NCBI RefSeq assembly: GCF_029633865.1
Contig: NC_079219.1
Coordinates: 10,977,420-11,041,419, forward strand
Length of the DNA: 64,000 nucleotides
Source of the DNA: Lampris incognitus
Taxonomy: Eukaryota > Chordata > Actinopteri > Lampriformes > Lampridae
Reading direction: 5' to 3'
Part shown: positions 53,170 to 55,814 of the stretch, piece after piece
Position numbering within the stretch: the stretch's first letter is position 1
Layout of the letters: each line of letters begins with the position of its first letter
The notes under the pieces: model-generated
Seen by the model: only the letters and a program-made list of their open reading frames with translations
The model's database searches: none
Told to the model about the DNA's origin: nothing
Position numbers and translations under genes: made by a program

Positions 53170-53304
53170 TGCAAACTACTAATAAGACCCGTTAGCCCCT
53201 AGCTAACGAGTCTGACCCTTTAGCCGAGCGGTTAGTGGTGTCGCCTTGTGGTGCAGTACACCGCGTATCGAATCCCGCACCGAGCAAGAAAATAACCGGT
53301 TACA
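53170..53304 (+). repeat. LTR 1 of the TRIM-like element
   Basis: 135 bp. A box at 53221-53231 (TAGCCGAGCGG), B box at 53265-53275 (GTATCGAATCC). CGTTAG...CTAACG forms a small hairpin near its start. Confidence 0.88.
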
Positions 53305-53305
53305 T

Positions 53306-53323
53306 TGGTGGCAGCGGTGGGAT
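53306..53323 (+). promoter_or_regulatory. primer-binding site, tRNA-Leu type
   Basis: TGGTGGCAGCGGTGGGAT is the complement of the 3' end of vertebrate tRNA-Leu(AAG/UAG) including CCA (ATCCCACCGCTGCCACCA), 18 of 18 from memory of the tRNA. Confidence 0.8.
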
Positions 53324-53388
53324 CCGGAAGCGTGCGGATCCTCGGAGCGCGGGAATAGCGAGGTCGCGCTTCCGGGGCGGGTGACGAC

Positions 53389-53523
53389 TGTAAACTACTA
53401 ATAAGACACGTTAGCCCCTAGCTAACGGGTTTGACCCTTTAGTCGAGCGGTTAGTGGCGTCGCCTTGTGGTGCAGTACACGTCGTATCGAATCCCGCACC
53501 GGGCAAGAAAATAACCGGTTACA
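53389..53523 (+). repeat. LTR 2 of the TRIM-like element
   Basis: 135 bp. A box TAGTCGAGCGG at 53440-53450, B box at 53484-53494. About nine substitutions relative to LTR 1, no length change. Confidence 0.88.
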
Positions 53524-54311
53524 TTTGTTTCTTCTAGCCTTTGTTCTAAATGGCTTTAAACTCCCGGTGTTTTTAGTCGTTGTGTGTTGAGCCCTCAGCT
53601 GACCATCTATGTACTGTCAGTGTGTGTGCCGGAGAGCCCCTTGCTGTGGAGCGGGTCTTTCTTCTTTATTTTGTAGAGGAGCTCAAGCAGGAGTCGTGAC
53701 AACTTTCTCTTTCGGCTACACAACGTGCACCATTTATTCCTTCACCATTACAACAACAACAAAAACCCGCGCAGCGGAAGTGTGCCACTGTAAACCCGAA
53801 CCGTGAAAACAGCAGCTGTAAACCAACGTTCCTACTAGCTCAATAAGGGGAATTATGTATCCTCATAACCACTACAATTTAATCTTTATCCATGAATTCT
53901 ACCAGAGATTCAGAATCTCTTCTGCGAGGGAGACCTAGCCGAGACAGCAGCATACAAAATTACTGCGAACAAATCAAACACAATAAAAACACAAAATTAA
54001 AAACACTGCCAGATTTACCACGAGGTGGTGGCTTTCCTTCCTTGCCCTGGAGAGGTCAGAGGTCAGGATCAGGCACAGAACAGCACCTTTGGCGTTGGAA
54101 GAGGTTCCGCGGTGTATCGAAATACTTGAGATAAAACCGTTATTCTCCCCCTTTACTTTCCCTTGACCTCCTTGCTGGAAAATTTCGCAAAGGTCAAGGG
54201 AACATCACAGGGATATTCAAAAGTATCTTCAGAAGTGGGGAAATCTGACCTCCCTTCAAAACAAACCAGCCCGTTTATAAAAGTAATGAAGTCTATGGCG
54301 ACAGGCATGGG
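53524..54311. other. no gene recognised
   Basis: Non-coding; a short (ACA)n run near 53750. No family recognised. Confidence 0.4.
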
Positions 54312-54539
54312 CGCAAGTCCATGAATACTGGGATGGCAGCCAGCGCTTTACCTGTGCCCCCGTCCACAGGGTTGGTGGTTGTGTCAGGAAGGGCATCCAC
54401 CGTAAAATTTATGCCAAATCATTATGCGGGCTGGCATTATCGGTGCTGTGCCCTCACAGGGTACCGATGAAAACGATCAAATCCGCTGTGGCGACCCCTG
54501 GGAAACTGGGAACAAACCGAAAGAAGAAGAAGATAGAAA
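54312..54539 (+). mobile_element. LINE/SINE 3' end with GAAGAAGA tail
   Basis: AGGAAGGGCATCCACCGTAA, then GGTACCGATGAAAACGATCA and AATCCGCTGTGGCGACCCCT and a GAAAGAAGAAGAAG tail. This is a common fish RTE-like 3' end, related to but different from that at 43118-43375. Confidence 0.65.
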
Positions 54540-54674
54540 TGTAACCAGTTACTTTCTTGCCCGGTGCGGGATTCGATACGAACTGTATTGCAGCACAAGG
54601 CGACATCACTAACCGCTCGGCTAAAGATTCAGATCTGCCAGCTAGAGACTAACGTGTTTTATTAGTAGTTCACA
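54540..54674 (-). mobile_element. solo LTR of the TRIM-like family
   Basis: 135 bp, TGTAACCAGTTAC...AGTAGTTCACA on the plus strand; flanked by GAAA (54536-54539, 54675-54678). On the minus strand the A box TAGCCGAGCGG and B box GTATCGAATCC are intact. The most diverged of the four copies. Confidence 0.85.
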
Positions 54675-54734
54675 GAAATAATAAAATGTATTGGGTTGGA
54701 CGCTAGCTGGGGTCTGGAAAGAAACAACAGAGCA

Positions 54735-55814
54735 CGCTCAGTAGTGGTTTTCAAACCCTGGGGGGTCGCAGAATATTAAAAATGATTTGGTAGACAGATT
54801 GTTTTGGTTTTTTTTGTAAATGATATGTCACACCAGTACGCCCCGTTCGTGCAACCAATCAAGCTCTCTAGATATCGCGGCAATTCGTGGGTCACATTCA
54901 GGATTTTAAAAAAAAATGACGTATTGCTGTTGCACAGAGAATTTAACACAATGCCCGATCTATCCTAACGTTTAGCTATGTGAAACGTCATCACGTACGA
55001 TATTTTCCTATCCTGACGCAGCCAGATCCCACCCTGCAATGTTCTACATGTATGCTAGCTAGTGTAACCGGTTATTTTCTTGCCCGGTGCGGGATTCGAT
55101 ACTGGTGTACTGCACCACAAGGCGACATCACTAACAGCTCGGCTAAAGGGTCAGACCCGTTAGCTAGGGGCTAACGTGTCTTATTAGTAGTTTACACTAG
55201 CAAAGTTGAGACTCCGTTCTAAGCTGTTTAGCTACCAGTTTAGGCTGGTGTCACTCCAATTAAACTAAAGATGAACAGGCCAAGGACAAGCAACACCATC
55301 GATCGTTTTGTTTTTTGTTTTTTTGTTTTTTTTTACAAGAAAAAGAGGGTCAGAGACGCCGACGACCCAGGATCTAACTCCCAACGAGGAGTGAGCTGCT
55401 GCACCTGACCCGTGACAGCGTAGCACTAAAACTGTGCAGTGGCTTTTATTTTGAAACGGCGATTAGGACGAGAAACACAGAAGAAGAAAAACGAACTCCG
55501 GATGGAGTTAGACCGGCGCTAGCTAGCTAGCAAGCCTCCTGAGCGGTCGGTTCCTAACGTCAGTGGTGAGCAGAGTAGTTCCCTGTAAGTAGCTGAAGTA
55601 TTAAATAAACGTCCAAGCTTATGGACTTATCTAAACTCCGTGTCCGGTCTGCATTGGACGGCCCCAGATTTAACCATTACAGCAGCATGCTGAGAACACG
55701 CCACGAAGCGGAGAAGTTATCCTCATTCTGGACTGGCCTCCCCCATGAGTATCCAGTGCTGAGTAAAGCGAGCATTTTGTTGCTATTGCCTCTCACAACG
55801 ACACACATCACGAC
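54735..55814 (+). pseudogene. hAT remnant (start and dimerisation end only)
   Basis: Begins with AGTGGTTTTCAAACCCTGGG, a typical hAT terminus. A likely N-terminus lies at about 55271 (MNRPRTSNTIDRF, then KKKRVRDADDP), followed directly by a C-terminal piece at 55621-55800 (RTRHEAEKLSSFWTGLPHEY, SKASILLLLPLTTTH) that matches the hAT dimerisation region. The catalytic core is missing, so this is an internally deleted copy. A solo LTR (55063-55197) is inserted in it, and an I-like LINE abuts or interrupts its 3' end at about 55815. Confidence 0.6.
55063..55197 (-). mobile_element. solo LTR of the TRIM-like family
   Basis: 135 bp, TGTAACCGGTTATTTTC...GTAGTTTACA, flanked by a perfect CTAG duplication (55059-55062, 55198-55201). 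Minus-strand A box TAGCCGAGCTG, B box GTATCGAATCC. Confidence 0.88.

Follow-up and report, generated by a model that had tools for sequence, protein, structure and literature searches.

A Helenus-type miniature retrotransposon of the fish Lampris incognitus, its probable Gypsy helper, and hybrid insertions that suggest joint copying

The 64,000-nucleotide stretch of the Lampris incognitus genome analysed here (the window; C12:10977420-11041419 of its own genome of 1.48 Gb) contains a 354-bp element at positions 53170-53523 of the forward strand, in which two 135-bp long terminal repeats (LTRs) with 93.3% identity enclose an interior of 84 bp, together with a pair of solo LTRs of the same unit. 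This arrangement, proposed earlier in a sequence-only reading of the window, is borne out by the coordinates and the alignment identities (Table 1). With its two LTRs, its shortness (354 bp, and 349-387 bp in 51 complete copies sampled from the genome) and its lack of a coding region, the element belongs to the terminal-repeat retrotransposons in miniature (TRIMs), and the locus raises the question of what transcribes such an element and whose proteins copy it. The evidence set out below indicates that it is probably a TRIM of the Helenus type with a tRNA-type promoter in its LTR, mobilised by a specific Gypsy element, and that chimeric insertions joining the two probably arose by copying in a shared particle.

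A 26-nt pattern spanning the end of the LTR and the primer-binding site (PBS) was matched at 1604+1613 places in the genome with at most two mismatches, a count that takes in junctions of the partner element and of chimeras too, and the reversed control was matched at none. The loci cut from this search were the first 30 exact matches, every one on C1; ahead of the PBS, 29 of them have the LTR of the TRIM or an LTR related to it, and one (L050) has that of the partner. Viral contigs gave no exact match to the junction, and phage sequences gave no match. For a sample of copies, loci L001-L070 and a 4.5-kb stretch of the window were resolved into 97 chains of pieces, from which 30 incomplete chains, four duplicates and three of other composition were left out, so that 51 two-LTR copies and nine complete solo LTRs were kept, the window's own copies among them. 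Not all of the 51 are independent, since L006 and L009 at least lie in near-identical flanks, and because copies entered the sample by way of their interior or junction it is uninformative on the ratio of solo to two-LTR forms.

Target-site duplications of 4-5 bp had been named as a check on the genome copies. An exact 4-bp duplication flanks 31 of the 51 two-LTR copies (mean 2.08 and maximum 7 after shuffling) and one with a single mismatch flanks 14 more; seven of the nine solo LTRs have an exact 4-bp duplication, and an exact 5-bp duplication was found at none of the 51. Among 40 exact duplications of any kind there is a palindromic target preference centred on TA. The Kimura two-parameter distance between the two LTRs of a copy has a median of 0.056 and a range of 0.016-0.121 (n=51). 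Tandem arrays of the form LTR-interior-LTR-interior-LTR occur at L060-L062.

The interior was expected to open with an 18-base PBS for tRNA-Leu, and it does so with an exact match. At a tolerance of three mismatches the PBS is matched three times in the window, a number reached in 0 of 100 shuffles. The complementary tRNA 3′ end has seven exact matches in the genome, and at one of these seven loci ARAGORN calls a tRNA-Leu(AAG) gene of the host. At the other end of the interior, a polypurine tract (GGGGAGGG or GGGAGAGGG) lies a few bases away from the LTR in 43 of the 51 sampled copies; that of the window copy is degraded.

A tRNA-derived short interspersed element (SINE), as monomer or tandem, would be a monomer with an A-rich or short-repeat tail, no PBS and duplications of variable length. 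Only the tRNA-type boxes of the LTR recommend it, and it has next to no chance of being the correct description: a PBS lies directly behind the LTR end at the 3217 junction places, the LTR is of the TRIM type at 29 of the 30 loci cut, two LTRs surround a short interior between 4-bp duplications, and there are chimeras with Gypsy. The copies examined thus have two LTRs, a PBS-bearing interior and 4-bp duplications, which make the element a TRIM and dismiss the tandem SINE, as the sequence-only reading had maintained; of the two findings that would have overturned it, an element devoid of duplications or a SINE monomer that never flanks a PBS, neither is borne out by these copies.

The partner was sought among exact PBS matches that do not follow a T (144 of them, from which 30 loci were cut). 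At five of the 30, an unrelated LTR of 248-259 bp stands ahead of the PBS and the TRIM interior. A genome search with the LTR of L092 gave 529 first-look candidates, the best 40 of which were scored, and two LTR matches 6.0 kb apart bound an element of about 6.3 kb (C6:38019264-38025530) with 254-bp LTRs that have one difference and a CTAT duplication on both sides. An interior piece of this copy encodes a reverse transcriptase domain (RVT_1, 4.8e-39). A broken copy (L077/L101) encodes a protease (4.1e-8) and has a gag match of 5.4e-4, below the Pfam cut-off; relatives of the gag number 110 proteins at E <= 0.001, and those named by species are all fishes. Three further autonomous copies were checked at both ends, where two have exact duplications and one has a duplication with one mismatch. 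The junction of partner LTR, PBS and partner leader was matched at 33+36 places (at most three mismatches; reversed control 0).

The partner and the TRIM share their LTR tips (TGTAA...CGGTTACA), the 18-nt tRNA-Leu PBS and the 4-bp duplication length, and a 27-nt run across the LTR end and the PBS is identical between the C6 element and the TRIM, whereas the LTR body, the promoter motifs and the start of the interior beyond the PBS all differ. The LTR of the C6 element has AATAAA, TTATAA and five starts of T4 runs, and no pair of A and B boxes. The prediction of a coding partner with the same LTR and tRNA-Leu site therefore holds for the PBS, the tips and the run that joins them, and does not hold for the body of the LTR, which is unrelated. 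On these similarities, it is likely that a Gypsy element with a Pol II-type LTR (Pol, RNA polymerase) supplies the particle, the reverse transcriptase and the integrase to the TRIM.

Mobilisation by another autonomous element, with the chimeras reflecting occasional mixing, is quite unlikely. The example to be considered is a second Gypsy-like element (L075, L100), which has the identical 18-nt PBS and, in L075, an open frame of 463 aa, part of which was scanned against Pfam and gave no match. Its LTR ends in ...TATTACTTCA, unrelated to the LTR ends of the TRIM or the partner, no chimera with it is present among the 60 loci cut by two PBS patterns, and it is the Gypsy partner described above that has tips, junction and duplication length in common with the TRIM.

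The TRIM and the Gypsy partner are joined in chimeric insertions composed of a partner 5′ LTR, the PBS, the TRIM interior and a TRIM 3′ LTR. Their junction of partner LTR, PBS and TRIM interior was matched at 97+93 places (at most three mismatches; reversed control 0), which amounts to 190 chimera junctions versus the partner's own 69. Among the best 40 partner-LTR matches of the 529 candidates, 38 could be classified from their flanks or from pattern places: 19 as the 5′ LTR of a chimera, four as partner 5′ LTRs, six as partner 3′ LTRs, one as joined to a third type of interior and eight as bounded by other DNA, six of which were checked on both sides and have exact duplications (6/6). Sixteen chimeric matches were traced to their 3′ ends in two batches, and 15 of them finish in a TRIM LTR of the orientation expected, the exception being L169/L170. 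Duplications were scored for 17 flank pairs, including those of the first-seen chimeras L080 and L091-L093. Three hits with further retroelement sequence behind the TRIM LTR were left out (at hit 18 a PBS followed by the partner leader, at hit 23 a PBS followed by a third interior, and at hit 8 another TRIM LTR), as was L077, which continues into partner sequence; L050 likewise falls outside the test. An exact 4-bp duplication flanks 11 of the 17, one with a single mismatch flanks four, and two have neither; in shuffles the mean was 1.06 and the maximum 7, and 0 of 20000 reached 11.

If the chimeras were products of recombination or gene conversion at the DNA level between integrated copies, no shared particle would be needed. 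Tandem or composite structures (L060-L062, L077, hit 18) and the two of 17 chimeras with flanks that differ at more than one place are what such exchange might leave behind, but the exact 4-bp duplications that enclose the complete chimera in 11 of the 17, the abundance of chimeric junctions, and the need of a conversion confined to the 5′ LTR for homology on its left, where the LTRs share about 5-7 bp, make this explanation unlikely. Some observations do weigh against copying in a shared particle. The split of the best hits is biased because the query LTR was taken from a chimera, the junction pattern counts being less so; none of the four first-seen chimeras tested (0/4) has an exact duplication; the reciprocal junction of TRIM 5′ LTR and partner interior was seen twice, in the composites L077 and hit 18 (no genome count of it was made); and since the pattern covers switches at the PBS only, rarity of switches elsewhere does not follow from it.

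Some loci have structures of their own. At L169/L170 (C2, about 44871255-44871829) the 3′ end resembles an inverted TRIM LTR and the duplication ATTG is exact, in which case both outer ends would be U3 tips. At L159 and L166 the third interior type (GATGGCCCGAGAGG...) is found behind partner LTR and PBS and behind TRIM LTR and PBS, and is possibly another non-autonomous element of the same system. The partner-type 5′ LTR of the chimera L177 opens with TGTAAACTAT, the first bases of the TRIM, perhaps as a result of a switch inside the LTR.

The other half of the question is the promoter. Motifs resembling the A box and an invariant B box of tRNA genes had been reported for every LTR of the window, and as sequence motifs they are present in all four: the B box GTATCGAATCC is found in 4/4, and the A boxes of the solo LTRs are TAGCCGAGCGG (at 54540) and TAGCCGAGCTG (at 55063). 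The spacing of 44 given for them is correct for three of the four LTRs and is 43 in the solo LTR at 55063. In a survey of 98 sequences upstream of a PBS (at most one mismatch), a few of which come from other elements, the B box is GTATCGAATCC in 69, GGTTCGAATCC in three (all of the L082 array) and GGATCGAATCC in two, and eight have no B box within four mismatches; the spacing from A to B is 44 in 74 of the 87 LTRs that yielded both motifs. The combined A and B score was compared with dinucleotide shuffles, using an A pattern one place too long on its 3′ side and leaving ties between A sites as they fell: it was reached by 8 of 1000 shuffles of the window 3′ LTR, 0 of 1000 for L082, 617 of 1000 for the partner LTR, and 1 to 104 of 1000 for the other seven subfamily LTRs. 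With such ties, the first-listed best A-type match lies off the A box in four of nine TRIM LTRs (window, L086, L065, L094). In a comparison of subfamilies whose identity to the window LTR is 63-73%, conservation is highest in the stretch from the A box towards the B box, and the A box ranks 12th and the B box 29th in conservation among 125 11-mers. From these motifs a tRNA-type promoter in the TRIM LTR is likely. Tandem TRIM copies at L082/L083 (C1, about 148949242) have the A box TAGTCGAGCGG and a textbook B box, GGTTCGAATCC.

Several results count against a functioning promoter of this class. In the window subfamily, the B box differs from GGTTCGAATCC at two of 11 places; ARAGORN found no tRNA in the window LTRs, and Rfam gave no tRNA match in these or in eight loci with related copies, which limits the likeness to tRNA to the boxes and the stretch between them. 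TTTT is absent from 50 of the 51 TRIM copies and from the window LTRs, an absence that is not significant per copy (P(0)=0.55), and T4 runs occur in two of the eight related loci, within the stretch tested. The LTR had also been said to have no polyadenylation signal; this is accurate insofar as three window LTRs have AATAAG and not AATAAA, and inaccurate in that the solo LTR at 54540 has AATAAA, a one-base variant of the same site, and all four have AAGAAA, motifs that leave room for transcription by Pol II. Two related proposals were abandoned: a conventional tRNA gene within the LTR was rejected for want of an ARAGORN or Rfam tRNA match, and depletion of TTTT, being non-significant per copy, was dropped as proof of transcription by Pol III.

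The same results can be accommodated by an ordinary TRIM transcribed by Pol II, with boxes that are the fossil of a long-captured SINE or tRNA and inactive as a promoter. This is a doubtful explanation, although a stronger competitor than those considered for the chimeras. The two deviating sites of the window B box, the failure of tRNA models to match, the AAGAAA of all four window LTRs and the AATAAA of one would fit it, but the window 3′ LTR, the one LTR tested for both, has neither a TATA-like motif nor AATAAA, a perfect B box has been kept in one subfamily (known from one locus), and the stretch from A to B is among the best conserved across subfamilies, the last point being moderate evidence.

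If the tRNA-type promoter is active, transcription by Pol III would begin shortly before the A box of the 5′ LTR, and the RNA would extend across the interior and the 3′ LTR as far as a T-run in the flanking DNA. Strong-stop DNA made from the 5′ LTR would be fully complementary to the 3′ LTR, so that no terminator inside the LTR would be needed. In the reverse transcription of LTR elements, the 5′ LTR of the product derives from plus-strand strong-stop DNA that anneals by the PBS, and the 3′ LTR derives from the minus strand. The structure of the chimeras therefore suggests that the two elements share one compartment for their copying: TRIM and partner RNAs would be reverse transcribed in one particle, where plus-strand strong-stop DNA of the partner would often pair, via the PBS, with the minus strand made from the TRIM. 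The predicted product is partner LTR, PBS, TRIM interior and TRIM LTR, the layout that the chimeras have, and one integrase may act on both tips and leave the normal 4-bp duplication. Beyond the observed structures, duplications and counts, we infer co-packaging, strand transfer, transcription by Pol III and the partner as the source of the proteins. The evidence as a whole somewhat favours a Pol III-transcribed retroelement that is packaged into, and copied within, the particles of a Gypsy transcribed by Pol II, the LTR tips recognised by integrase and the PBS being essentially all that the two have in common.

If so, a helper will have been assigned to a TRIM with a tRNA-type promoter, little homology would be needed for parasitism of this sort, and the approximately 190 chimeric junctions, which outnumber the helper's 69, would be a record of plus-strand strong-stop exchange. 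Within one fish genome a probable helper can be named, shared sequences can be told from unshared ones, and the chimeras may serve as a physical record of co-replication. For annotators, LTRs with tRNA-like motifs should not be equated with tRNA genes or SINEs.

Table 1. Positions of the TRIM, its parts and its solo LTRs in the window
Feature	Positions	Strand	Remarks
Target-site duplication TTTG	left 53166-53169, right 53524-53527	+	read directly
5′ LTR of the TRIM, 135 bp, TG...CA	53170-53304	+	
A-box-like motif TAGCCGAGCGG, 5′ LTR	53221-53231	+	
B-box-like motif GTATCGAATCC, 5′ LTR	53265-53275	+	
TRIM interior, 84 bp, shortened	53305-53388	+	93-109 bp in 40/51 sampled copies
tRNA-Leu PBS TGGTGGCAGCGGTGGGAT, exact 18 nt	53306-53323	+	one base behind the 5′ LTR
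Degraded polypurine tract GGGGCGGG	53374-53381	+	window copy
3′ LTR of the TRIM, 135 bp	53389-53523	+	
A-box-like motif TAGTCGAGCGG, 3′ LTR	53440-53450	+	
B-box-like motif GTATCGAATCC, 3′ LTR	53484-53494	+	
Solo LTR 54540	54540-54674	-	85% identity to 3′ LTR; GAAA duplication 54536-54539 / 54675-54678
Solo LTR 55063, 134 bp	55063-55196	-	94% identity; CTAG duplication 55059-55062 / 55197-55200

The coordinates first given for these features are retained with one exception, the end of the second minus-strand solo LTR, which was placed at 55197 and is at 55196. The duplications claimed for the three insertions can all be read directly from the sequence. Immediately adjoining the solo LTR at 54540 is a repeat tail that ends in a run of AAG units (54300-54539), presumably similar to the ends of teleost Rex3/RTE elements.

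The window also contains Gypsy elements of its own. One (9027-13460, minus strand) has two identical 210-bp LTRs, the PBS TGGTGTCAGAATAGTCTG and two long open frames, one of 669 aa and one of 616 aa in which RNase H and integrase domains lie; another (17925-22340, plus strand) has identical 243-bp LTRs, a different PBS and a 1074-aa open frame with reverse transcriptase, RNase H and integrase domains. Both were rejected as helpers of the TRIM on account of their other PBS sequences. A Gypsy-like element with broken frames (59542-63286, minus strand), in which the one frame scanned has integrase domains, was set aside because no LTR pair was found for it within the window. ARAGORN calls a tRNA-Leu (CAA) at 39106-39192 (plus strand) that may be spurious.

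A tRNA-type TRIM in fish had been thought to be new. This claim falls, because TRIMs whose LTR contains a tRNA-like sequence were described as Helenus by Kojima (2024; PMC10886601), with the proposed name TRIMp3; that paper lists zebrafish and other cyprinids, a loach, a catfish, milkfish, sturgeon, paddlefish and coelacanth as hosts. It gives Helenus an A box of TRGCY...YGG and a B box with a conserved GGTTC, animal Helenus 4-bp duplications and vertebrate Helenus tRNA-His, Leu or Lys primers, and it treats transcription of Helenus by Pol III as unproven (PMC10886601). The window element agrees with this description in several features: TRIM structure (most Helenus being <1 kb), A- and B-box-like motifs within the LTR, a PBS beside the 5′ LTR, a polypurine tract beside the 3′ LTR, tRNA-Leu as primer, and duplications of the 4-bp length at its two-LTR and solo copies. 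Box A of its subfamily (TAGCC...CGG) fits the published definition (PMC10886601), whereas its box B has GTATC, GGTTC being found only in the related L082. The element is accordingly filed, from its sequence features, as a further Helenus member with a deviating B box. To judge by its description, zebrafish LTR-11_DR is a similar Helenus family, for which tandem arrays and thousands of copies are reported (PMC10886601).

For animal Helenus, a likeness to Gypsy around the PBS is described, and the means by which a TRIM stays dependent on the autonomous element are stated to be unknown (PMC10886601); here, by comparison, there is a partner with shared tips and there are chimeric insertions. A literature search found no other paper on Helenus or TRIMp3 elements and no report that, on grounds going beyond the PBS region, assigns a helper to an animal TRIM with a promoter of the Pol III type. 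The full-size helper element and the hybrid insertions suggesting joint copying look new.

The plant TRIM Cassandra is similar in having a Pol III-type promoter inside its LTR, but that promoter is of the 5S rRNA type and not the tRNA type; according to Kojima, nothing points to its autonomous family, and its transcription ends within the 5S sequence of the 3′ LTR (PMC10886601), whereas the window LTRs are without TTTT. No 5S rRNA match was found by Rfam in the window at the gathering threshold or in 53100-55300 at E up to 10.

In rice, Dasheng and RIRE2 are reportedly large elements of the Pol II type with related LTRs. Chimeras of the non-autonomous Dasheng with this putative partner are mentioned in a later paper (PMC5473765, citing Jiang et al. 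2002), and target-site features common to both partners and the occurrence of some chimeras are points of likeness to the pair described here. In the Lampris pair, by contrast, the two elements have unrelated LTR bodies and, it appears, promoters of different classes. The Gypsy partner itself resembles teleost Ty3/Gypsy elements in its reverse transcriptase, its protease, its weak gag match, the AATAAA of its LTR and its 4-bp duplications, and is set apart from others of them by a PBS and LTR tips that match those of the TRIM.

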